A DNA stretch of 64,000 nt from a virus, in the IMG/VR virus record IMGVR_UViG_3300032294_001228, positions 54,685 to 118,684 of that record, one strand, 5' to 3'. Shown in pieces: positions 25,499 through 39,121 of the stretch (position 1 is its first letter; the number at the start of each line of letters is the position of its first letter). Below the pieces are notes generated by a model, which made no database searches, was not told where the DNA came from, and worked only from the letters and a program-made list of their open reading frames with translations. Position numbers and translations under genes: made by a program.

Positions 25499-27808
25499 AT
25501 GGCAGATACTACCTATACCTTAATATTAGAACAATCCGGAATTAAAGCATTTACTATGCCAGATGGATTTTTCCCAGATGTTGAAATATACTGCTGGGGA
25601 GCAGGTGGCGGTACTGGATGGGGAGGTGCCTCGGGAGGTGGTGGTGGCTATGCCAAAACCACAGCTAACATAAATCCTGGAGATGAAGTTACTTTACAAA
25701 TAGGTCAACCCGGAAGCAATGCTCCAGCAGCAACAGGTGTAGGTGGCGCGGGCGGACTAGATACTACGTATCGAAATTTCCGAGGTGGTAATGGAGGTGC
25801 GAGAGGTACATGGTGCGGACAAAATGGTGGTCCTTATCCTAGCGGTGGAGGTGGAGGTGCTAGTTTTGTTGCTATCGACGGATCATTTGTCTGCGTAGCC
25901 GCAGGTGGAGGCGGAGGTAGTGGATATGGTCACAATAATGTAAAATATCCAGGTTTACCGGGCGGCAGTTGGGATGGATTAGCGCCAGATTTTAGAGGTC
26001 AAGATGCTGCATATGGCGGTGGAGGTGGTGGCGGATATCCGCGAGGTGGTGCCGCAGGTACAGTTAGCGGACATACTGTAACACGTGGTAGTGGTGGTCA
26101 AAACTACGGAGATACAACTATTGCAGGCAGCGGAAGTTTAGGTGCTGGTAAAAATATAAGTTTATATCCGGGAGATAAAATCGGAGATGCTGGCTATCCT
26201 GGTTATATTGCGTTAAGATTGCGCAAGAAATTTAATGCATTTATTAAAGATGCCGATGGTTCAGGCGATTGGGTTAACTTAGAATCTGCTTATTTTAAAT
26301 TACCAACACAATCAATTAGTGTATCACAAACATCAGAAAGTCAAACATTAACTTATAATTCAGTAGGAACTAACACATTTACAGTACCTGCAGGAGTAAC
26401 ATCAATCCAGGTGGCTGTTATCGGAGGTGGTGGAGGTGGTGGATTCCCATCATCTGGACAAAGCGGATTCTCTCAAGGTGGAGGTGGTGGCGGAGGTGGT
26501 TCTGGTGGATTATCCTCAGGAATAATATCGGTTACCCCTGGAGAAACATTAACCGTTACTGTTGGAGCTGGCGGTGCTGCTGGACCTGGGATAAGTGGCA
26601 CTCTAGGCAATCCTGGTGGCACCGGTGGAACTTCATCAGTTAACAGATCATCTACTACATTACTCAGTGCCTCAGGTGGTGCGGGTGGAAGAGGTGGTCA
26701 AGGTAATCCTAATACTGGTGGCGCAGGTGGTGCGGGTGGAACTGGAACTACATCAAATGGTAATTCGGGATCTGCAGGCACAGCAGCCGGAGGTGGTGGA
26801 TTATCGTCAGGTGGAACCGGTGCTAGTTCAAGTTCGGGTGGTGCGGGAGGATCTGCAGGATTATTTCCAACCGCTGGAGGAACAGGGGGAACAGGTGCTG
26901 GTGGAGGTGGTGGATCAAGTTCTGGATTTAATCCTAATGATGTCGAAACATCAGCCGGCGCTGGCGGCGCTGGTAGAGTTACGATTTCTTATACTCCTGC
27001 TCCTTTTAATGTTACCATAGTGACGGGTGGGTGGAAACAAATTCAGCAGGCATTTATCAAAGTAAACAATTTTTGGAAGCCTATCCTAACTGATACAACT
27101 ATTGACTTATATAATTACCCAGCCAAACGTATCAAAGCCAATATTGTAATTAGCTCAGATACCAGCGATTATAATCTGTTTAATAATGTACCAGTGTCTT
27201 ACTTTGAAGGACTAATGGATATTGATGTTTGGGTGTTGCCGGGTGTTGAAATAACTGGTAATGCATCAGGCACAGCCTTTACTGTTTCAGGGTTTACGGA
27301 AGGTGATCGTATTACCTTACGCAATTATGGTTATCTAGCAGGTCGTGGAGGCCAAGGTGGTAACGGTGGTTATCGTTATACTGTTAATAAAAGCACATCT
27401 ACCGCCCCACCGTCAGCAGGCAGTAACGGTGGCACCGGATTATTACTTAACTACCCAATTACCTTAATAAATAATGGTAATATTGCGGGTGGCGGTGGCG
27501 GTGGTGGAGGTGGCTCAGTAACTACATTTAGTTCTGGTAAAAGTACTTCGTTTAATAACGGTGGTACAGGTGGTGGTGGCGCTGGATTTGGTGTAGGATT
27601 TAATAATGGTACACTTACATCAGGTGGTGCAGGACAATCTGCTGCAGGCGGTGGTGATGGTGGAGCTGGTGGTGCTAGAGGTCAGAACGGTGGAAATGGT
27701 GGTGGTGGCGGTGGCGGTGCAGGTGGAAGGGCAGGTCCTGCAATACAAGGCTCATTAAATTTAGTACCAGGTTCAATTCTAGGATCGTATTTTGGGGGTC
27801 TAGGTTAA
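25499..27808 (+). CDS. Glycine-rich adhesin-type tail fibre tip protein
   Basis: 769 aa. Very high glycine content in runs (GGGGG) separated by Ser/Asn/Thr, with three blocks (about 30-240, 310-500, 610-760). Polyglycine-II brush architecture like the S16 gp38-type adhesins at the end of long tail fibres. A compact Trp-containing segment (about 505-590, 'GGWKQIQQAFIKVNNFWKPI') separates the blocks and may be an attachment domain; 'GDKIGDAGYPGYIALR' also appears. It likely recognises the host receptor, and the Gly-rich loops can vary quickly. Confidence 0.72.
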   Translation: MADTTYTLILEQSGIKAFTMPDGFFPDVEIYCWGAGGGTGWGGASGGGGGYAKTTANINPGDEVTLQIGQPGSNAPAATGVGGAGGLDTTYRNFRGGNGGARGTWCGQNGGPYPSGGGGGASFVAIDGSFVCVAAGGGGGSGYGHNNVKYPGLPGGSWDGLAPDFRGQDAAYGGGGGGGYPRGGAAGTVSGHTVTRGSGGQNYGDTTIAGSGSLGAGKNISLYPGDKIGDAGYPGYIALRLRKKFNAFIKDADGSGDWVNLESAYFKLPTQSISVSQTSESQTLTYNSVGTNTFTVPAGVTSIQVAVIGGGGGGGFPSSGQSGFSQGGGGGGGGSGGLSSGIISVTPGETLTVTVGAGGAAGPGISGTLGNPGGTGGTSSVNRSSTTLLSASGGAGGRGGQGNPNTGGAGGAGGTGTTSNGNSGSAGTAAGGGGLSSGGTGASSSSGGAGGSAGLFPTAGGTGGTGAGGGGGSSSGFNPNDVETSAGAGGAGRVTISYTPAPFNVTIVTGGWKQIQQAFIKVNNFWKPILTDTTIDLYNYPAKRIKANIVISSDTSDYNLFNNVPVSYFEGLMDIDVWVLPGVEITGNASGTAFTVSGFTEGDRITLRNYGYLAGRGGQGGNGGYRYTVNKSTSTAPPSAGSNGGTGLLLNYPITLINNGNIAGGGGGGGGGSVTTFSSGKSTSFNNGGTGGGGAGFGVGFNNGTLTSGGAGQSAAGGGDGGAGGARGQNGGNGGGGGGGAGGRAGPAIQGSLNLVPGSILGSYFGGLG

Positions 27809-27830: not shown

Positions 27831-28181
27831 ATGAGTAAAATTTCAATTAAAATAACAGAAGTAGATCAGAGATCAAGATCGATCGTTGTAAAATTTGCCA
27901 GTGAACAGAGTTTAAAACCATTAGATGATTATGATGGATTAGCATTTAATATTGCTAATTTTAATTCTGTAACACCTGAAGAATTTATAGCAAGTATAAA
28001 ACCTCAATTAAGTAAAATGGTAGCAGTTAGAGATCAAGCAGAAAGAATAGTAGAATCATTGGATCTGAGTGGTTGGATAAATTATACGACTACTGTTGAC
28101 AGTATTGAAATATTCGAAGTTGATCCAGCAGTTTCTCAACAAATCTTGATAGGTTTGGCTAATCCGGAAGTAGTCTTATGA
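27831..28181 (+). CDS. Hypothetical protein downstream of the adhesin
   Basis: 116 aa, SD AAGGA. Mixed beta then helical, 'KPLDDYDGLAFNIANFNS' and 'TPEEFIASIKPQLSKMVAVRDQAERIVESL'. No family named. The position suggests a fibre or adhesin assembly partner, by analogy with T4-like phages that encode a chaperone next to their adhesin. Confidence 0.5.
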   Translation: MSKISIKITEVDQRSRSIVVKFASEQSLKPLDDYDGLAFNIANFNSVTPEEFIASIKPQLSKMVAVRDQAERIVESLDLSGWINYTTTVDSIEIFEVDPAVSQQILIGLANPEVVL

Positions 28182-28690
28182 TCTTAAATAATAGTGTGAA
28201 CGCAGGCAATTTTATCTACTGTATGGCCTATTTTGGTCCACACGAAACCAACACCTATCTCAATGATGGTGATGGACATTATCATCAATTCATTTATATC
28301 GTAGAAGGTCGCGGCAGTGGTACTATAACAGCTACACCCGACGGTGAAGTTATACGATATGAAGATGGAGATAGTCAAGGTCAATTAATTGATCTAAGTC
28401 CGGCTAAAGGATACTATCATACAACTAAAACACAAGACGTTAGCCTAACAACTATAATGTTTAATCCAATACCTGCATCTAGGATATTGGATGTAGAAAT
28501 AGTCAAAGGTCCTATAATCAAAACAGCCGCCGCTACAGATAAAAGAGTTACTGTGGTCTGCATTACTGGTCCAATTACTGCCAATGATAAAACTCTGGTA
28601 AGCCTACAACATGCCAAAATATTTCCAGGTAAAACTGCTGAACTAAACCTACCAGAAAACACAGTCTGCGCCCTAGTGTCTGATAAGTAA
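28178..28690 (+). CDS. Cupin-like protein
   Basis: 170 aa, ATGA overlap with the previous gene. The first half holds a cupin metal motif 'GHYHQFIYIVEGRGSGTI' (about 30-48: H..H..E) with a later 'KGYYHTTKTQDVSL' (about 74-87) supplying the distal His. The second half is a beta-rich segment. May process a small molecule or sugar. Adjacent to the lipid module but separated from it by an intergenic gap of 30 nt. Confidence 0.6.
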   Translation: MILNNSVNAGNFIYCMAYFGPHETNTYLNDGDGHYHQFIYIVEGRGSGTITATPDGEVIRYEDGDSQGQLIDLSPAKGYYHTTKTQDVSLTTIMFNPIPASRILDVEIVKGPIIKTAAATDKRVTVVCITGPITANDKTLVSLQHAKIFPGKTAELNLPENTVCALVSDK

Positions 28691-28720: not shown

Positions 28721-29959
28721 ATGGAACAATACGTAGTTACAGGTATAGGCATCTACAATAGCCTTGGCAAATCAGCTGAAGAAAGTTGGCGTAACCTACT
28801 AGCAGGTCAGTCAGCAGTTGGTCAAATCTCGTGGCCTGCGGATGATCCTACATCATATCCAGCAACATACTCTAGCGTAGCTAAAACACGTATTGCTGCC
28901 CCAGCTACAAAACTCACAGAAGATGACCTACACCCAGAACATTTTGACTATGGTTGGCGACATTGGGATCCTAATACTCGTGCTTGCTTGATGAGTGTTG
29001 ATGAAGCAGTGCGTGACAGTGGACTAGCATCGAAACGTGCCGGTGTTATCATTACTACTTTTGGTAGTGGAACAAGCCTAAGATTAGATTTGTTTAATGC
29101 TATAGACAAGGGTCGCACCAAATATCCTCCACGTAAAGTATTAAATATCGGGCTAGATTTTCCTGCCGCACAGGTAGCGGCTATCTATGGATTCAGTGGT
29201 ACAAATACTGCTATGGACAGTGCCTGCACTACAGGTATAACATCAATCGATTATGCTATCACCAGTCTCAAAGCAGACCCTAACCTAGATGCAATGATAG
29301 TAGGTGGTGCAGATCATCTATGCGAACCTATTAATATATTTTGGTTCCAAAGCCTCGGCGCATTATGTCCTAGTGACAATCCCCAAGACAATCGTCCATT
29401 TGATGTTAACCGCAGTGGTTTCGTCATGGGAGAAGGTGCAGCTACTATGGTTATTGAGCCGCTAAGTAAAGCCCAAGCCCGTGGTGCTAAAATCTACGGT
29501 GCTATCCTCAGCACAAACTTATACACATTGTTTGACAGCGACACCAGTCCAGATCCCACAGGTATTGGCGCACGTACCTGTGTGCAAGGTGCACTTGATA
29601 AAGCAGGCATCACAGCCAATGATGTAGACTTTGTTAACGCTCATGCTACCAGTACACCTGTCGGTGATGAAATAGAATTTAATGCCATGGCCAGCTTAAC
29701 ACCAGGTCGCACCATGGTTAGTAATAAAGGACAAATTGGACATAGTATGAGCACTGCTGGTATAGTTGAAACTATCTATACCCTACAAGGCATGCGTGAT
29801 AGTCAAGTTCCAGGTAATGCAAACCTAATAGATCCACTAGGTCACGGTATGACTCTACCCACAGAATCAGTAGAATTAGATGTTAAATACGCTATAAAGA
29901 ATAGTTTTGGATTTGGAGGAAGAAATGCCAGCATGGTTCTCGCTAGAATGGATAGCTAG
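28721..29959 (+). CDS. fabF: 3-oxoacyl-ACP synthase (beta-ketoacyl synthase, FabF/B type)
   Basis: 412 aa, full-length KAS II size. The nucleophile Cys is in 'AMDSACTTGITSID' (near residue 169), catalytic His in 'VNAHATSTPVGDE' (about 307) and second His in 'NKGQIGHSMSTAG' (about 343). It would condense malonyl-ACP with acyl-ACP in fatty-acid elongation. First gene of a four-gene run with two desaturases and an SDR. No clear promoter was found; a weak AGGGCG SD precedes the ATG. Rare in phages. Confidence 0.92.
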   Translation: MEQYVVTGIGIYNSLGKSAEESWRNLLAGQSAVGQISWPADDPTSYPATYSSVAKTRIAAPATKLTEDDLHPEHFDYGWRHWDPNTRACLMSVDEAVRDSGLASKRAGVIITTFGSGTSLRLDLFNAIDKGRTKYPPRKVLNIGLDFPAAQVAAIYGFSGTNTAMDSACTTGITSIDYAITSLKADPNLDAMIVGGADHLCEPINIFWFQSLGALCPSDNPQDNRPFDVNRSGFVMGEGAATMVIEPLSKAQARGAKIYGAILSTNLYTLFDSDTSPDPTGIGARTCVQGALDKAGITANDVDFVNAHATSTPVGDEIEFNAMASLTPGRTMVSNKGQIGHSMSTAGIVETIYTLQGMRDSQVPGNANLIDPLGHGMTLPTESVELDVKYAIKNSFGFGGRNASMVLARMDS

Positions 29960-30731
29960 ACAACTAAGACCTAGTCGTTGGTTTGCTAGCCTGATGCAGA
30001 TCACTGTATTCGTTGCTATTGCCTATGCCGTAAGTCTAGATGCCGCATGGTATTGGTGGGCAGGCACTGTATTCTTTTATCTAATCGTTTACTCGATGAT
30101 TGGTAATAACATCGCCCTACACAGATATTTTACACACGGGCACTTCTCAGTCAGCCGTCCTGTTGAATGGTTATTCTTATGGACCGGCAGTATGATTGGG
30201 CTTGGTGAGCCTTTAAGTTATGCTATGACTCATGCTGTACATCACAAATACAGTGATCAACCTGGTATCGACCCTCATGGTCCTACCAACGGCAAACGTT
30301 CAATCTTTATTTGGTTCCAACGTGAAGTAGATCCTGCTAAGACTCCTATCGTTAGTAAACATATCGTGGGATTAAGTCGTAAGTGGGGGTGGTTACATCG
30401 TTTTTATGTTCCATTTGTAGTAGTTAACGCCGCTATACTTTATCTGATAGATCCTTATGTATTCTTGTTCCTATGGTTGATACCAGCTGGTATCGCCTGT
30501 TGGGGCATTGGCTGGGCAGTATGGCGTCAACATTGGCACAGAACTCCGAACAATAGTCCATTGCATCGATGGGATTGGGTCTATGAAGGCCTACACTTAA
30601 ATCATCATGATTGGCCTATGGCTCCTAATACTGCTGTGCGTCCTGGGGAAATAGATTGGACTCATGAATTCAGCAAGATATTCAGACCTAAATTCAATTG
30701 GCAAGGACAACCTACAGATGTCAAAGAATAA
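29925..30731 (+). CDS. Membrane fatty acid desaturase 1
   Basis: 268 aa from the ATG at 29925, preceded by an excellent GGAGGA SD; an upstream in-frame ATG at 29907 is less likely. The three diiron histidine boxes are present: HRYFTH (HxxxxH), HAVHH (HxxHH) and HLNHH (HxxHH), as in SCD/OLE1-type delta-9 desaturases. Four to five hydrophobic segments. Overlaps fabF by 35 nt, indicating translational coupling. The acyl carrier (ACP, CoA or phospholipid) is not determinable. Confidence 0.9.
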   Translation: MPAWFSLEWIARQLRPSRWFASLMQITVFVAIAYAVSLDAAWYWWAGTVFFYLIVYSMIGNNIALHRYFTHGHFSVSRPVEWLFLWTGSMIGLGEPLSYAMTHAVHHKYSDQPGIDPHGPTNGKRSIFIWFQREVDPAKTPIVSKHIVGLSRKWGWLHRFYVPFVVVNAAILYLIDPYVFLFLWLIPAGIACWGIGWAVWRQHWHRTPNNSPLHRWDWVYEGLHLNHHDWPMAPNTAVRPGEIDWTHEFSKIFRPKFNWQGQPTDVKE

Positions 30732-31455
30732 GTGGATCCTACAACCTAACTACGTATGGATGACACTCATGCAGGTCATGCTACCTGTGTACGTTTATCT
30801 TGCGTGGGGTGCTGAACTGCACTGGTGGTTACTGGCTTTTGTATTCTATTTCCTATATCTCTGTATCGGCAACAATATTGGCATGCATCGCTACTATAGC
30901 CACAGATACTTTGAGATGAGTAAACCTGTAGAATACTTTGTAGCTTGGTGTGCGTTTATGGCCTGCTTGGGTAGTCCACTGAGCTATGTAAACATACACA
31001 ATGTCCATCACAAACACAATGACACTGGATTAGATCCACATGGTCGCCAACGTGGATGGAAGTCAGTGCTGTTTTGGTATCACAAACATCTATGGCCCTG
31101 TGATATGATATTCACACGTAATCTACTAAAACTAACAGCACGTTATAAACTGTTACATGATTACTATTGGTTATGGGTATTTGGCTGTGCTGGTTTGATG
31201 TATGTCCTAGGTGGATGGAATGTCCTATTATTCTGTTGGTTATTGCCTGCTAGTTTAACATTATGGGCCGTGGCATTTGTTCTATTATTACAACACGACA
31301 ATGCGGGTCCTAGCAACACACGAGCATACATGTGGTTTGGCTTTGGGGAAACATGGCACAAAAATCATCATGACGATCCTAGTTTAGTCGATCATAGTCT
31401 AGGCCAAGGTGTAGACTGGACCTACAAAATAACAAGGATCTTGGCAAAAAAATGA
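30718..31455 (+). CDS. Membrane fatty acid desaturase 2
   Basis: 245 aa from the ATG at 30718, overlapping the first desaturase by 14 nt. Histidine boxes HRYYSH, HNVHH and HKNHH are complete, with multiple hydrophobic segments. It is a paralogue of the preceding protein, differing across the loops, so the two may have distinct positional specificity. Ends overlapping the SDR gene (ATGA). Confidence 0.9.
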   Translation: MSKNKWILQPNYVWMTLMQVMLPVYVYLAWGAELHWWLLAFVFYFLYLCIGNNIGMHRYYSHRYFEMSKPVEYFVAWCAFMACLGSPLSYVNIHNVHHKHNDTGLDPHGRQRGWKSVLFWYHKHLWPCDMIFTRNLLKLTARYKLLHDYYWLWVFGCAGLMYVLGGWNVLLFCWLLPASLTLWAVAFVLLLQHDNAGPSNTRAYMWFGFGETWHKNHHDDPSLVDHSLGQGVDWTYKITRILAKK

Positions 31456-32099
31456 TTATAGGTATTACCGGAGATAGTATTGGTATTGGTAAGGCATTAA
31501 AAGACAAGTTCATTGAACAAGGACATATAGTTAAAGGATTTAGTCGTTCCAATGGATATGATGTGTCAGATGCAAAAATTCAAAACAAAATCATCGAACA
31601 AATAGTAGATTGTGACATTTTTATTAATAATGCTTATGCAGGACATGCACAAGCCGCAATGTTGACAAAATTAATAACTTTATGGAAAGATACAGACAAA
31701 TTAATAGTCAACATGAACAGCAAGGTTGCTCTTGCTCCACCAGTGCATCACCCAAAAATACAAAAGCAATCGAAACAGATTCAAGATTTTTTTGCTGACT
31801 ATTACATAAACAAAACAACACAGAATCAAATTATTGCCAACACATTGTTTATGGCATCACCAAAAATATTAAATGTGTTTTGTGGATTTGTTGATACTAA
31901 ATCTGCGGAATTTTTTAAATCACCTAATAAATTAACAGCCATTGATGTGGCTGAACTACTTTTAGATCTCATCAAGTATAAAGATAGAATATATATTCAA
32001 CAGATTACATTTGACGCGGTGGGTATTGATTATAATACTGTAGATTATGATTTTGATGCTATAATAACGTGGGGTTTACGTAACAAGTCAAATATATGA
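31452..32099 (+). CDS. Short-chain dehydrogenase/reductase
   Basis: 215 aa. 'IIGITGDSIGIGKAL' is the TGxxxGIG dinucleotide-binding motif, 'IFINNAYAGHA' the NNAG-like stretch, and 'YYINKTTQN' (about 117-125) supplies a YxxxK pair. Being shorter than FabG (about 244 aa), it may be a divergent 3-ketoacyl-ACP reductase partner for the phage FabF, or act on a sugar. Codon usage is more AT-rich than its neighbours. Coupled to both neighbours. Confidence 0.72.
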   Translation: MIIGITGDSIGIGKALKDKFIEQGHIVKGFSRSNGYDVSDAKIQNKIIEQIVDCDIFINNAYAGHAQAAMLTKLITLWKDTDKLIVNMNSKVALAPPVHHPKIQKQSKQIQDFFADYYINKTTQNQIIANTLFMASPKILNVFCGFVDTKSAEFFKSPNKLTAIDVAELLLDLIKYKDRIYIQQITFDAVGIDYNTVDYDFDAIITWGLRNKSNI

Positions 32100-32716
32100 A
32101 CAGTTTTATCCAAGTCAAAGAAACCCAACTAGATTTAGAACGCCTTAAACGTGATGCTCGCAGGATCAATAACAAAGTCTGTCGGCAACTAGGCCATCTA
32201 GAAGTTCCCGGCGATACAGCATATCAATCAACCCTCAAAGCTCAATTAGATGCAGCTCCTATGAGTAGCCGGTTACACGACTACTATAACGTGTTCTCAT
32301 TTCCCTACGATGGTATCAATGAATTATACAGGGAAGTATGTGCGTTCTTCAAAGAAATCTGTGAATATGATCAACCCTACTATATACACGCTTGGTTAAA
32401 TTACCTACAAAAAGATGATAGTGTGCCCTGGCATAACCATTGGGGTGCTCTAAGCGGACTTACACAGACCTATGTTTGTAGTGCTTATATTAACGCAGAA
32501 CCCAGCAATACCATATATAAATTTCCAGATGGGCACGTTTACGAAATAGAGAATCGCAACAATACTATAACCTTATATGAAGACATAGGTGACACACATA
32601 TGGTAGAACCCTGGACTGGTGATGAACCCAGGATCACTATCAGCATGGATATGGTGCCTATGAAATACATACAAGGAACGCCATTTTTACTCAATACTTG
32701 GATGCCTGTAGTATAA
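32096..32716 (+). CDS. 2-oxoglutarate/Fe(II)-dependent oxygenase-like protein
   Basis: 206 aa. Iron facial triad 'WHNHW' (about residues 102-106, HxH or HxD-like) and distal His in 'GDTHMVEPW' with 'EPRITISMDM' providing the 2OG-binding Arg: the double-stranded beta-helix pattern of P4H-like enzymes found in many T4-like phages. Substrate unknown (protein, nucleotide or lipid). ATGA overlap with the SDR. A perfect late box overlaps its stop. Confidence 0.75.
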   Translation: MNSFIQVKETQLDLERLKRDARRINNKVCRQLGHLEVPGDTAYQSTLKAQLDAAPMSSRLHDYYNVFSFPYDGINELYREVCAFFKEICEYDQPYYIHAWLNYLQKDDSVPWHNHWGALSGLTQTYVCSAYINAEPSNTIYKFPDGHVYEIENRNNTITLYEDIGDTHMVEPWTGDEPRITISMDMVPMKYIQGTPFLLNTWMPVV

Positions 32717-32746: not shown

Positions 32747-33460
32747 ATGAAACGACTAGTATTAGCATTAAGCCTATTTTTAAGCGCAACGGCTTGGGCA
32801 GGCATCAATCAAACGTGTGGGCAATTCACAGCCGCAGGGGTACCACAATACTCACCCAAAACAGGTGATCAAGAGATCTGCCATAAGAATTATGCTGTTA
32901 TCCATAGTTGTGCTGTAAAAGCACCTATCGCAGTATTCGAGCACTTGACACCAGCGGCCATGTCAGGAACAGCAACACGCAAAGACGACTTCCGTCCGGA
33001 TCCACAGGTAACATTTGCTTGTTCAGCTAGTTTAGCGGACTATGCTTCTGTAGGTAAGACACACGATCGTGGACACATGAGTCCAGCCAAAAATAACACT
33101 ATCAATCCAGAAATTATGAGTGAAAGTTTCTTTTTGAGCAATATGGTTCCACAGGTTGCTAACAACAATCGCGGTATCTGGAAACAGTTAGAAATGCAAG
33201 AACGCCAATGGGCAACGGCTCCGGGCACAGATTTCTACATCATCTCAGGTGGTATCTATGATGCAGGACACGCTAAAACTGGTAACGGTCTAGGTATTCC
33301 TACACGCCTATATAAGATCATCATCGAGAAAAATAGCAAGAAAGTTATGGCATACTTAATGCCCAATCAAGCACTACCAGTGGCAGATTTGCCTAAATAT
33401 CAAACTACTGTGGCAGAAGTTGAAAAAGCTACAGGATTTAAATTTCAATTACCTAAATAA
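32747..33460 (+). CDS. Exported DNA/RNA non-specific endonuclease (NucA/NUC1 family)
   Basis: 237 aa. A cleavable signal peptide (MKRLVLALSLFLSATAWA, about 18 residues) is followed by the beta-beta-alpha-metal nuclease with 'THDRGHMSPA' (catalytic His in DRGHM, about residue 107) and the metal Asn region 'NNRGIWKQLE' (about 141-150). Cysteine pairs fit a periplasmic disulphide-bonded enzyme. It would degrade nucleic acid in the periplasm or after lysis, possibly lowering competition from other phages or clearing extracellular DNA. Late promoter. Confidence 0.9.
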   Translation: MKRLVLALSLFLSATAWAGINQTCGQFTAAGVPQYSPKTGDQEICHKNYAVIHSCAVKAPIAVFEHLTPAAMSGTATRKDDFRPDPQVTFACSASLADYASVGKTHDRGHMSPAKNNTINPEIMSESFFLSNMVPQVANNNRGIWKQLEMQERQWATAPGTDFYIISGGIYDAGHAKTGNGLGIPTRLYKIIIEKNSKKVMAYLMPNQALPVADLPKYQTTVAEVEKATGFKFQLPK

Positions 33461-33461
33461 T

Positions 33462-33833
33462 ATGACAAATACTAACGAATTTTGGGGTTATCATCTAATA
33501 CTTGACTGTCGTGCTTGCCACGTGCCTAGCATACAGAGCAGAGACAACGTATATAATTGGATTAAACATCTGGTTAAAGCGATAGACATGGAGCCAATCG
33601 GTGAACCCCGCATCGAATATACCGCCGCAGAATTTCCTGATAAAGCAGGCTTCACAGCTATACAGGTTATCGTAACATCCAGCATCGTAGCACATTTTAT
33701 AGACTCAACAGGTGATGTTTATATCGATGTGTTTAGCTGTAAAGAGTTCGATAATGCCACTGTAATAGCCAGTATCAAAGATGCATTTATGCCTCAACGC
33801 ATACGCACTAACTATTTGACCCGCCAAGCATAA
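33462..33833 (+). CDS. S-adenosylmethionine decarboxylase-like protein
   Basis: 123 aa from the ATG at 33462; an upstream in-frame ATG would overlap the nuclease. 'WGYHLILDCRACHV' (about 8-20) and 'IVTSSIVAHFID..GDVYIDVFSCKEFD' (about 70-97) align by eye with SpeH-type AdoMetDC: pyruvoyl-forming Ser at 73 or 74, His at 78, and Cys at 93. The usual Glu before the Ser is replaced by Thr. Such speD-like genes are frequent in cyanophages and make polyamines that can condense DNA. Catalytic status needs checking. Confidence 0.6.
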   Translation: MTNTNEFWGYHLILDCRACHVPSIQSRDNVYNWIKHLVKAIDMEPIGEPRIEYTAAEFPDKAGFTAIQVIVTSSIVAHFIDSTGDVYIDVFSCKEFDNATVIASIKDAFMPQRIRTNYLTRQA

Positions 33834-35683: not shown

Positions 35684-36411
35684 AATCGATTGAATTTATC
35701 ATTGAACGCTGTTGGAAAGGCTACAAGCAGGTGGGTGGCAAGAAAAAAGGTGGCCGCATGGTTCCTAACTGCGTGCCTGTAGAAGAGTCACGTCGCGACC
35801 CTACAGAATTGTTCAAACCCGAAGACAGCGAGTTAGATGATCTGCATCACAAATACATAGCCACTTGGACTATGTTAGATCATCACATATTGGAAAAGAC
35901 CTATGCGTTCGCAGACGATGATACTGCTGAACAGTTCATTGACATGGTAAACGAATTTAGTGAAGTCATGGATCACAATGCGGTAATCACGCAGGACAAT
36001 GCAGAAGTCAAACTACAGATCACTACCAATGATGTCAAAGGCCTAACCATACTAGATTTTGAATTTGCCTTGCGTGCAGATGATGCGGCTGACACACTAG
36101 ATGGTCAATCTCAAGGTCATCCAACAAACGCTGTGAACGAAAATCTACGTGACTGGTTTGGTAAAGGCAAGCAAGGTGGTGCAGGTGGTGGAGGTTGGGA
36201 CAGATATAATACCAAAGGTGAACGCATAGGCAAGTGTGGAGATCGTAAGCCAGGTGAAGGTAAACCTAAATGCCTAAGCAAGAGCAAAGCCGCGGCACTC
36301 CGAGCTAAAGGTGGTAAGAAAGCTATCGCAGCTGCCGTAAGACGTAAACGTAGTAAAGATACAAATCCTGAACGCAAAGGTCCAGCCATAAACGTGAGCA
36401 ATAAGATATGA
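35680..36411 (+). CDS. Candidate packaged protein with basic Cys modules at both ends
   Basis: 243 aa. 'MKSIEFIIERCWKGY' (IIE at 7-9) leads into 'CWKGYKQVGGKKKGGRMVPNC', a basic Cys..Cys module. The middle (about 55-140) is acidic alpha/beta. The end is a strongly basic, Gly/Lys-rich tail with 'CGDRKPGEGKPKC' and 'KGGKKAIAAAVRRKRS'. The charge layout suggests binding to packaged DNA. ATGA overlaps both sides. Confidence 0.62.
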   Translation: MKSIEFIIERCWKGYKQVGGKKKGGRMVPNCVPVEESRRDPTELFKPEDSELDDLHHKYIATWTMLDHHILEKTYAFADDDTAEQFIDMVNEFSEVMDHNAVITQDNAEVKLQITTNDVKGLTILDFEFALRADDAADTLDGQSQGHPTNAVNENLRDWFGKGKQGGAGGGGWDRYNTKGERIGKCGDRKPGEGKPKCLSKSKAAALRAKGGKKAIAAAVRRKRSKDTNPERKGPAINVSNKI

Positions 36412-37823
36412 GAGCTAGAGACCTAACTAAAGGCAACATAGCCTATCACGATGAGCTGAATCCCCAAGTATGGAATGGTCGCGACTTACGAGTCGATGTC
36501 CGCTATAAACTATTAGAGATAGCCAAACGTTTCATTGAATATCTAGAAGTTCCCAACTTTAAATTAGAAGATGTGATCTTACGTGGTAGCTTAGTAAATT
36601 ATAACTATACTGCCTATAGTGACTTTGACTTACACATCGTCACAGACTTTAGTACACTAGACTGCGACATCACAGAAGCATTCTACATGGCTAAGAAACG
36701 TATATGGAACGATGAGCATGATATCACTATCAAAGGTCATGAAGTAGAATTATATGTAGAAAACAAGGATGCTAAGAATGTATCAGAAGGTACCTACAGC
36801 GTGTTAGATGCTCGATGGTTACGGACTCCAAAATATCAACAGCCAGATATTGACGATCGTGCTGTTAACGCTAAAGCTCGCGATCTAATGACCCAGATAA
36901 ATCGTGCTATTAAGTCTGGCAGTGTAGAAGATATCACACGCTTACAAGACAAGATCAAAACCCTGCGTCAAGGTGGATTAAATCGTGCTGGTGAGTTCTC
37001 AACAGAGAATCTAGCGTTTAAGATCATACGTAACAAAGGTTATCTAGATCGCTTGTACAAAAACAAAAACTCTAAATTTGATCAAGAACTAAGTTTAGAT
37101 GAAGATATAAAAACAAATACACTCATGGCGGCATTGATAGCAGCATTGAGCGGTACGCCAGCACAGGCAGACTATTACTGTAATCCAGAAACCACACAGG
37201 CACATCCTAATCAATCACAAAATGCTATAACAATAATGAGAGGAATCAACAACGTTAAAAATCTAGAACGTGCTGGTATGCATATAGAAGCTGTTGGTGA
37301 AGCGGCCAAACTATTTAAAAATATCAGCAAGATGCCTAACAAAGATTGTGTTGCACCTATAGTAAAAGATCAACTACCACCACTACAAGATTCTGTAAAT
37401 GAACGCAAGAAATCTAAAAAGAAACGATCAAAGCGTAGATATCCTGCGGGTGGATATTATGGATACTATTGGGGCGGACATAATGATAGCTCAGACAGTG
37501 CTGGTGATGCTGGAGGTGGTGGAGATGGCGGCGGCGAAAGCATGTACGAAAGCCAAGCGAGATTAGATCCTGAAGTAGAAGAATTCCTAGATGGATTAAC
37601 TCCAGATGATGTCGGCTATGATCTAGTAGGTGATTACATTGTCCACTATGAAGGATTTACTGATCAATGCCAAGACTCTGAAGAATATCAAAATGATCCA
37701 GAAGCAGTATTCAATGATGTATGGGGTGATTTTAAGCGTCGCATGGGTGACAAAGATCCCGTTAATTATGGCATAGTTGGCGAGCATGACTATCCTATTG
37801 TCTATAGTGTGTTTAGAAAATGA
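36408..37823 (+). CDS. Nucleotidyltransferase-fold protein 2 with internal signal-peptide-like segment
   Basis: 471 aa. NTase motif 'RGSLVNYNYTAYSDFDLHIV' (about 64-83; GS plus DFD) and third acid in 'VELYVE' (about 110-115). At about 243-261 a hydrophobic stretch 'TLMAALIAALSGTPAQADYY' looks like a signal peptide with an AQA cleavage site, followed by a domain with several Cys, then a Lys-rich and Gly-rich linker ('KKSKKKRSKRR', 'GGGGDGGGES') and an acidic C-terminal domain. N-terminus 'MRARDLTKG' lacks [L/I]xE. A fusion or two-step processed protein is likely. Confidence 0.65.
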   Translation: MRARDLTKGNIAYHDELNPQVWNGRDLRVDVRYKLLEIAKRFIEYLEVPNFKLEDVILRGSLVNYNYTAYSDFDLHIVTDFSTLDCDITEAFYMAKKRIWNDEHDITIKGHEVELYVENKDAKNVSEGTYSVLDARWLRTPKYQQPDIDDRAVNAKARDLMTQINRAIKSGSVEDITRLQDKIKTLRQGGLNRAGEFSTENLAFKIIRNKGYLDRLYKNKNSKFDQELSLDEDIKTNTLMAALIAALSGTPAQADYYCNPETTQAHPNQSQNAITIMRGINNVKNLERAGMHIEAVGEAAKLFKNISKMPNKDCVAPIVKDQLPPLQDSVNERKKSKKKRSKRRYPAGGYYGYYWGGHNDSSDSAGDAGGGGDGGGESMYESQARLDPEVEEFLDGLTPDDVGYDLVGDYIVHYEGFTDQCQDSEEYQNDPEAVFNDVWGDFKRRMGDKDPVNYGIVGEHDYPIVYSVFRK

Positions 37824-39121
37824 GAGCACGTCAGTTTATATTAGAATACAATCAACAGGCCACAGCACAACGCTTTGGTGATAAACTCTTACAGGCTGCT
37901 GTAAAAGATCCTAGTCCAGAGATTTATAACATCTATTCTTTATTAAACGATCGCAAAGAGTTCAAAGATTTTAACTTAGATCCAAATACTAAAACCAATA
38001 TCCTAATCTCAATCATGCAGGCCATTGAAGGTGCAGATCCAACTAAGAACAAAGAATACACAGTGTTCCTGGCTAAGATGTATGCCCAGGGTGGATGGGG
38101 TGCTCGTATCGAAGACTTAGAAAGTAAAGTCAAACCAGCATTAGAAAAATTCCACTTATTAAAACTTAAGAAGAAAATACCAGCACCACGTAACGATATC
38201 ATGCGTTACAGTGACCTAGCAGACTTTGTAGCGGTAATAGATGAATATCCAGATCCAGAAGAAAAGAAACAAGTAGACAAAGGCACTGCCAAAACAGTAT
38301 TTGAAAATGATGCTGTGCGCATAGTCGTTCCAGAAGATCAAAATGCCGCTTGCTATTATGGTCAAGGCACACGTTGGTGTACAGCCGCTAAGACCAGCAC
38401 CAATTACTTTAATCATTACAGCAAAGAAGGCAACTTATATATACTTCTACCTAAACAACCCAAGCACGATGGTGAGAAATATCAACTGCACTTCCCTAGT
38501 GAACAGTTCATGGATGAAAATGACTATGGTGTTGAAAATATAGTCAACTTATTAGAACACCGCTTTGGCAATTTAGTGCCATGGTTCCAAGAACACGAGC
38601 CAGCTATACGTGAGTGGGTTATGTTTGCCCGTGATGAAGATTTAAAAGAGCCCTTGATGCAGATTGGCGAAATCGTCATGGAACATGTTTGGGAAATGAT
38701 CAATGATTGGGAAATAAACGATGACTACTGGTATGAGCATCTACGCAAAGAAGGCTATGTATATCCAGAAGGACATGAAGAAGAAGGCATGATTGACTGG
38801 GACAAGGCTGCAGAGGATGACGTCGATTATCTCAACTGGAACTATGATGCCAATGATTGGTTTCTCGCAGCCAAAGAAGCTGTTGAACTAAGTCCAACTC
38901 AGGCACGTCGTGGTGCAGAAGAGGGCTACGAAGAAGAAGGTGAAATAATCACCATGGGTGAACTGGAATTAATACCGGCCTACAATGTTCGCCAGGCATT
39001 CCTCCGCAGCCGTGATGGTGATGGTGGATTAGAAGAGTGGATACACAAACGTATCGTCATGCAGAAAGATGGTGACAAGTGGGTGGCTAAATTTTATACT
39101 CCACCTAAGAAAACGACATAA
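37820..39121 (+). CDS. Candidate packaged protein with GTRWCTA motif
   Basis: 433 aa, 'MRARQFILEYNQ' (ILE at 7-9). A central motif 'YGQGTRWCTAAKTSTNYFNHYSKEGNLYILLP' (about 175-206), with invariant-looking Cys and His, resembles a domain I recall from many uncharacterised phage proteins ('GT.WCTA...F..Y...G.LY'). The C-terminal half is acidic with Trp/Asp/Glu-rich runs. The Cys and His could be catalytic or structural. No known enzyme class. Confidence 0.6.
   Translation: MRARQFILEYNQQATAQRFGDKLLQAAVKDPSPEIYNIYSLLNDRKEFKDFNLDPNTKTNILISIMQAIEGADPTKNKEYTVFLAKMYAQGGWGARIEDLESKVKPALEKFHLLKLKKKIPAPRNDIMRYSDLADFVAVIDEYPDPEEKKQVDKGTAKTVFENDAVRIVVPEDQNAACYYGQGTRWCTAAKTSTNYFNHYSKEGNLYILLPKQPKHDGEKYQLHFPSEQFMDENDYGVENIVNLLEHRFGNLVPWFQEHEPAIREWVMFARDEDLKEPLMQIGEIVMEHVWEMINDWEINDDYWYEHLRKEGYVYPEGHEEEGMIDWDKAAEDDVDYLNWNYDANDWFLAAKEAVELSPTQARRGAEEGYEEEGEIITMGELELIPAYNVRQAFLRSRDGDGGLEEWIHKRIVMQKDGDKWVAKFYTPPKKTT

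Follow-up and report, generated by a model that had tools for sequence, protein, structure and literature searches.

A phage gene cassette for a beta-ketoacyl-ACP synthase and two membrane desaturases that may remodel host acyl chains in several steps

What could a phage achieve with an overlapping run of genes for a beta-ketoacyl-acyl carrier protein (ACP) synthase (KAS) and two membrane fatty acid desaturases (DES1 and DES2)? Such a run lies in a stretch of 64,000 nucleotides (the window), which covers positions 54685-118684 of the IMG/VR virus record IMGVR_UViG_3300032294_001228 (record length 118,684 bases). The original prediction, made from these letters alone, had described at 28721-32099 an operon of four genes (a FabF-like synthase, two desaturases and a reductase of the short-chain dehydrogenase/reductase family, SDR), which would alter membrane fluidity by making host acyl chains longer and more unsaturated. 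All four genes are present there on the same strand, and the run is wider, with a bicupin-like protein encoded before the KAS and a 2-oxoglutarate (2OG)-Fe(II) oxygenase after the SDR. The claimed overlap of the genes was borne out as well: from the KAS through the oxygenase each gene, always on the plus strand, overlaps its successor. The most likely start of DES1 is the ATG at 29925, with GGAGGA just upstream, and not the mechanically assigned TTG at 29907, which gives an overlap of 35 bases with the end of the KAS gene; DES2 most likely starts at the ATG at 30718, within the end of DES1 (the mechanical open reading frame, ORF, begins at the ATG at 30664), and the DES2/SDR and SDR/oxygenase junctions overlap by 4 bases each. 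We suppose, with somewhat more confidence than doubt, that this cassette remodels host acyl chains in several successive steps.

The KAS belongs to the KAS I/II family, PF00109 (2.5e-35) and PF02801 (5.9e-24) both being over the cut-off. The Cys-His-His triad claimed for it is intact: Cys169, His308 and His341, together with Lys336, are identical in all eight aligned phage copies and align to the ACTSG, NAHGTSTP and K..GH motifs of solved KAS II, and among solved structures the FabF/KAS II enzymes come nearest to it. As to the name FabF, the equivalog model TIGR03150 gave 265.1 bits against a cut-off of 493.75, and the protein is below every listed NCBIfam cut-off. The enzyme shares with bacterial FabF (KAS II) the fold family, the catalytic residues and the whole length, but its identity to the best of them among 398 Pseudomonadota genomes is only 37-39%; the best matches, from 26 of these genomes at E<=1e-55, are ordinary-looking FabF proteins, all with 34-39% identity. 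In the KAS tree the phage copies make up a separate long branch (the placement of virL023 and virL035, which were kept in it despite their very long branches, is unsure). Since the TIGR03150 cut-off is not reached, bacterial FabF proteins are so distant and the branch is separate and long, the enzyme is, judging from its sequence, a KAS-II-like enzyme that phages have had for a long time, and no FabF orthologue by TIGR03150. A bacterial donor was sought and rejected: the phage KAS profile returned 26 pattern matches on genome contigs, no relative among them, and the best matches in the 398 Pseudomonadota genomes stayed at 34-39% identity. The search of phage isolates gave 29 records, none of which reached 60% identity (the maximum was about 36%); most are unannotated and have a bacterial-looking content, and they were taken for contamination or prophage-bearing assemblies.

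Both desaturases have the three histidine boxes originally ascribed to them, ten histidines (those of the boxes and two further ones) being invariant in 14 phage desaturases. With PF00487, DES2 is above the cut-off as a protein (2.7e-12, 47.4 bits) and in the six-frame search (48.3 bits), while DES1 is just under the cut-off of 29.7 bits as a protein (1.5e-6, 28.6 bits) and over it in the six-frame search (32.1 bits). The model of DES1, built without the first residues from an alignment of the 14 phage desaturases, has a pLDDT of 89; its best PDB matches are the stearoyl-CoA desaturases (SCD) 4zyo, 4ymk and 6wf2 (prob 1.00, TMq 0.62-0.65, Foldseek E 1.0e-5 for 4zyo), and SCD was the only fold that Foldseek found for it at E<=0.001. 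The Pfam family, the histidine boxes and the DES1 fold thus support the prediction of SCD-type membrane desaturases, and family, active-site and fold evidence for the run speaks in favour of the predicted elongation and desaturation of acyl chains. DES1 and DES2, 34% identical to each other, fall into two clades (10 and 11 rows, respectively, each with SH-aLRT 97), both nested in a larger phage clade (26 rows, support 100), which also holds the five desaturases of contig L038 described below; the tree omits the DES1 of L003, more than 95% identical to that of the window. The retention of both paralogues suggests that they may act at different positions of the chain. The search for a bacterial desaturase donor ended with 80 genome loci of 25-45% identity over the best segment, none of them close.

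Scans of viral contigs (two single-protein and two profile searches) revealed the arrangement in 11 further contigs: L002/L009, L003, L004, L005, L006, L008, L012, L013, L015, L016 and L038. In ten of the 11 DES2 runs directly into the oxygenase gene by 4-46 bases; in L038 a different, FabI-like SDR occupies the slot and the oxygenase follows it. The SDR was therefore rejected as part of a conserved unit, and the four-gene unit of the original prediction has to be given up: the proposed search for the same order in other phage genomes returned ten contigs without the SDR, one of them without the KAS too, and L038 with its FabI-like enzyme. Ten cassettes, that of the window among them, have their upstream side on the contig, and nine of these include the KAS, L016 being the exception; L013 and L015 are cut and were not judged in this respect. 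The lasting core appears to be DES1-DES2-oxygenase, with the KAS as a usual and the SDR as an accessory member. Purifying selection is seen in the median dN/dS values of 0.157 for the KAS, 0.134 for DES1, 0.062 for DES2 and 0.058 for the oxygenase, calculated from pairs with dS<2 only (26 of 28, 7 of 36, 17 of 55 and 12 of 36 pairs, respectively). As the gene order recurs in other contigs under such selection, the cassette can be regarded from these comparisons as no chance assembly. In L038 (L038:5590-12297) the KAS, five tandem desaturases, a protein of 93 residues and the FabI-like SDR make up one run, then comes the oxygenase; the 12 best NCBIfam models for this putative enoyl reductase are all FabI (best 3e-63), their cut-offs being unreached. 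Its pairing with the KAS fits real elongation on ACP.

The window's own SDR keeps the TGxxxGIG motif, the Ser/Thr-Ser region and YxxxK across 14 aligned phage homologues, so that the Rossmann and YxxxK motifs reported for it stand and it can be placed in the SDR family; the Pfam adh_short match is weak (0.036, below the cut-off). Its relatives occur in 44 viral loci, eight of which (L214, L217, L227, L242-L245 and L248, identical contigs unmerged) also have a desaturase in view, and one relative (37% over 104 residues) adjoins the ACP of locus L181. The AlphaFold2 model of the bicupin-like protein is all beta with a pLDDT of 91.3; its Foldseek matches are cupins, the pirin-like YhaK and BacB, and its HxH motif is nearly invariant. 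Together with the small protein p116 it lies upstream in all nine cassettes, the window included, whose upstream side lies on the contig. A role in defence was rejected, none of the seven proteins compared having a match to a PADLOC-DB model at E<=0.01. The layout of the run and its flanks is given in Table 1; an NT5C-like protein is encoded farther downstream of the cassette, after the nuclease and the S-adenosylmethionine decarboxylase.

Table 1. The gene run and its neighbours, in window coordinates.
Feature	Position	Strand	Basis or remark
Tail-fibre-like protein	25499..27808	+	phrog_863 tail fiber assembly 4.6e-19, other tail families; context, outside the enzyme set
p116, small conserved protein	27831..28181	+	adjoins the bicupin wherever both are on the contig
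Bicupin-like protein	28178..28690	+	fold model and structure matches; Pfam only 0.088
KAS, KAS-II/FabF-like	28721..29959	+	PF00109, PF02801, active site
DES1, predicted membrane fatty acid desaturase, stearoyl-CoA desaturase type	29925..30731	+	PF00487, fold, ten His
DES2, predicted second membrane desaturase, separate paralogue clade	30718..31455	+	PF00487 2.7e-12; phmmer to SCD1 4ymk 6.2e-9
Small oxidoreductase of the SDR family, accessory gene inserted between DES2 and oxygenase	31452..32099	+	motif alignment
2OG-Fe(II) oxygenase, conserved partner	32096..32716	+	phrog_81 5.3e-14
DNA/RNA non-specific endonuclease, downstream context	32747..33460	+	PF01223 5.8e-40
S-adenosylmethionine decarboxylase, downstream context	33420..33833	+	PF02675 9.1e-16

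Related desaturases form larger arrays in other viruses. The profile of the 14 phage desaturases reached 77 viral loci; for counting, 124 loci were reduced to 66 by merging those with an identical desaturase C-terminus, and desaturase ORFs shorter than 120 aa were left out. These 66 loci, gathered by similarity and thus not a random sample, have one desaturase in 37 cases, two in 20, three in four, four in three, and five and seven in one case each; hence at least two are present in 29 loci, and in 22 loci at least two are directly tandem. An ACP match is in view in nine of the 66, a KAS match in nine (the distant L023 included) and a type III ketosynthase in three. In L149, L181 and L187 the genes of ACP, SDR, type III ketosynthase and AcpS stand in a row ahead of three to seven desaturases, and L149:3678-13505 (IMGVR_UViG_3300009703_000012), in which genes for an ACP, a TauD-like protein, an SDR, a type III ketosynthase and AcpS precede seven desaturases in tandem, appears from its gene content to be the fullest phage acyl pathway among the loci examined. 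L181 also has a head scaffold protein along with a prohead protease of T4 type, and L187 a head maturation protease. Overlapping desaturase-ACP-desaturase genes are found in L145, L146 and L150/L151/L154; in L145:7122-8810 the ACP gene (PF00550 6.3e-14) overlaps the second desaturase, and an SU10 major capsid protein is on the same contig. In record G013 (locus L136) an ACP gene lies 4.7 kb upstream of a desaturase that belongs to the window's clade. Among cultured phages, the L149 desaturase matched Pelagibacter phage Mosig EXVC030M and two Acinetobacter-named records, and the L181 ketosynthase only Streptomyces phage ZL12 (24%). Four desaturases of L172 and three of L184 lie, as judged by eye, among GNAT-like, asparagine-synthase-like and Rieske-looking genes; L172 also has a phosphate-binding-like protein (PF12849), and rubredoxin is present in the records of both. 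In the 114,735-base record G012 (L023/L049), whose genes lie on both strands, an AMP-ligase-like protein and a divergent KAS occur together with four desaturases.

For the substrates, the order of the steps, the product, its destination and the advantage to the phage we infer the following scheme. The KAS-II-like enzyme would accept acyl chains from the host ACP and add one malonyl unit to each; DES1 and then DES2, in the membrane and with electrons from host carriers, would introduce double bonds in turn at different positions. Hydroxylation of the chain, or of the molecule that carries it, is the probable task of the 2OG oxygenase; the bicupin may assist, and the small SDR could be an optional reductase in the genome of the window. 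The resulting acyl chain would bear two or more modifications and be destined for host lipids or for a lipid made by the phage.

The closest competitor of this scheme is the membrane fluidity of the original prediction: an auxiliary metabolic function in which a KAS II and delta-9-type desaturases simply raise the amount and length of monounsaturated phospholipid chains. Fluidity is also what has been published as a proposal for viral desaturases, in the available parts of the sources (PMC7300359, PMC8228385, PMC7678222). The KAS-II-like and SCD-like families agree with it, yet such a function leaves unexplained why both paralogues persist wherever a cassette of the clade is complete, why five desaturases occur in one relative and up to seven, together with their own carriers, in other phages, and why the oxygenase is conserved. 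Because both paralogues are kept and the arrays grow, we prefer serial modification and consider plain fluidity rather unlikely. A modified chain could instead enter lipopolysaccharide (LPS), lipid A or another surface lipid and exclude superinfecting phages, which would agree with the tail-fibre-like protein directly upstream of the set, with the tail-fibre genes near the desaturases of Mosig and, by listing, near L038, and with the oxygenase and cupin partners. However, no acyltransferase or LPS gene was seen within the set, and the flanks of tail-fibre genes are common sites of cargo genes in phages, so that this envelope remodelling seems improbable to us. That the genes are mere cargo, without current function and kept by chance near such a hotspot, would account for the patchy KAS and SDR, but is largely refuted by the selection described above (medians of 0.06-0.16) and by catalytic residues that are invariant over wide divergence; we find it scarcely credible.

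Several small tandem desaturases, with an ACP in some phages, also bring to mind the bacterial alkyne/polyyne clusters, where several desaturases act on one ACP-bound chain and the core, in the available part of the account (PMC8406139), consists of a fatty acyl-AMP ligase, ACP, thioesterase and rubredoxin (jamABC plus two desaturases). The phage desaturase profile does reach bacterial clusters (L120 and L109) in which an AMP-ligase-like gene accompanies desaturase(s) and rubredoxin- or ACP-like genes; nevertheless, their desaturases group with other bacterial ones outside the phage clade, and among 26 records the AMP-ligase (PF00501) was found in G012 only and rubredoxin in two, neither of them the window's own record or of its clade. 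An antimicrobial polyyne as the product is therefore very improbable, and membership in such clusters was rejected on gene content, none of AMP-ligase, ACP and rubredoxin having been found in the window's own (incomplete) record. A bolder possibility takes the arrays themselves as the guide: tailed phages would carry a mobile modular pathway dedicated to an acyl product that is polyunsaturated, hydroxylated or acetylenic, in which two to seven desaturases work serially on an ACP-bound chain, KAS, type III ketosynthase, FabI-like or SDR reductases and oxygenases are plugged in, and the fullest versions bring their own ACP and AcpS; a natural product would be made during infection, and the window would hold a reduced form operating on the host ACP. 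We regard this as tentative and on balance doubtful.

Several observations weigh against the serial modification that we favour. L016/L137 retains both desaturases without a KAS; in L135, L136 and L139 the sequence in view shows no KAS and only one desaturase from the window's clade. The desaturase lineages of the ACP-bearing arrays are mostly outside the window's clade; the arrays are therefore linked to the window's phage by analogy only and would illustrate the use of such genes among phages rather than their use in this one. Among the records searched, no ACP was found in the window's own (G000) or in the six of its closest kin (G004, G007, G008, G009, G010 and G011); of the 20 records searched besides the window's own, five have an ACP. 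FabA/Z above the cut-off and plant-type 2Fe-2S ferredoxin were found in none of the 26 records, the window's own included. Although neither ACP nor FabA/Z was found in the record, the lack of an ACP, FabZ or FabI stated in the original prediction does not follow: G013 has an ACP, L038 has a FabI-like reductase, and the 118.7-kb record probably represents only part of the genome of a jumbo myophage, since its DNA polymerase is nearest to those of Sinorhizobium phage Phosso (52%) and then Agrobacterium phage Atu_ph07 (47%), with genomes of 469-490 kb. Partner genes missing from the record therefore prove nothing.

How much of this was already known? Lipid desaturases of cyanophages were reportedly described by Roitman et al. 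in 2018, phage-borne membrane desaturases as in the window. Pelagibacter phage Mosig (MT647606), the only match of DES2 in the cultured-phage collection, has an FA_desaturase beside Asp_Arg_Hydrox and tail-fibre genes, but this is its sole desaturase, sharing 26.6% identity with DES2 over 65% of the latter, and it has no KAS. Viral contigs from Arctic brine and Lake Baikal encode SCD-type desaturases with three histidine boxes; the accounts, in their available parts, treat single genes and membrane fluidity, without KAS, FabI-like gene or tandem arrays (PMC7300359, PMC7678222). The freshwater pelagimyophages PMP-D, or fonsimyophages, resemble the window in gene content, speH, fabF, stearoyl-CoA desaturase and 2OG-Fe oxygenase being named among their special genes in the available part of the description (PMC7029224), and the window has all four kinds; that part gives no gene order, desaturase number or function, so the comparison is by description alone. 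Hence single phage desaturases, as well as fabF with a desaturase in freshwater pelagimyophages, are already known (as far as the available part of PMC7029224 goes), and the claim that such sets are rarely described in phages holds for the arrays and not for the pair as such. No report of phage desaturase arrays with KAS or ACP was found in the open-access literature, a scope that leaves out most subscription journals and preprints. Compared with the bacterial polyyne clusters (available part of PMC8406139), the window has the several desaturases in common, and AMP-ligase, ACP and rubredoxin were not found in its record.

The window's phage looks different from PMP-D, its DNA polymerase being nearest to those of jumbo phages and its transfer-messenger RNA (tmRNA) being of beta type. 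This tmRNA, upstream of the window (L032:9136-9424), matches the betaproteobacterial tmRNA model (RF01850, 4.7e-47), and points to a host that would be a betaproteobacterium and not Ca. Fonsibacter; ARAGORN predicts for it an odd, long tag peptide. The same upstream part of the record encodes a GroEL-like chaperonin of 541 aa (L032:13299-14924), with 70% identity to the GroEL of enterobacteria and 61% to the copy of a Vibrio phage. At 36408-39121 the window encodes two neighbouring proteins (471 and 433 aa); in sister contigs their relatives vary in number and in the way they are fused. A search of the record for a terminase with phrog_2, which may not be a terminase model, gave no match. Promoter-like sites (37 against 28.5 expected) and terminator-like sites (10 against 6.2 expected) were not used as evidence.

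Viral desaturases have so far been read as single genes that loosen the membranes of the host. Cassettes with a KAS, in one case a putative enoyl reductase, and two to seven desaturases, and in other phages ACP with AcpS beside such arrays, turn this into a testable question, namely which acyl product is made and what its destination is. The arrays constitute a natural series of desaturases, in which the chain position of each enzyme could be assigned one by one.

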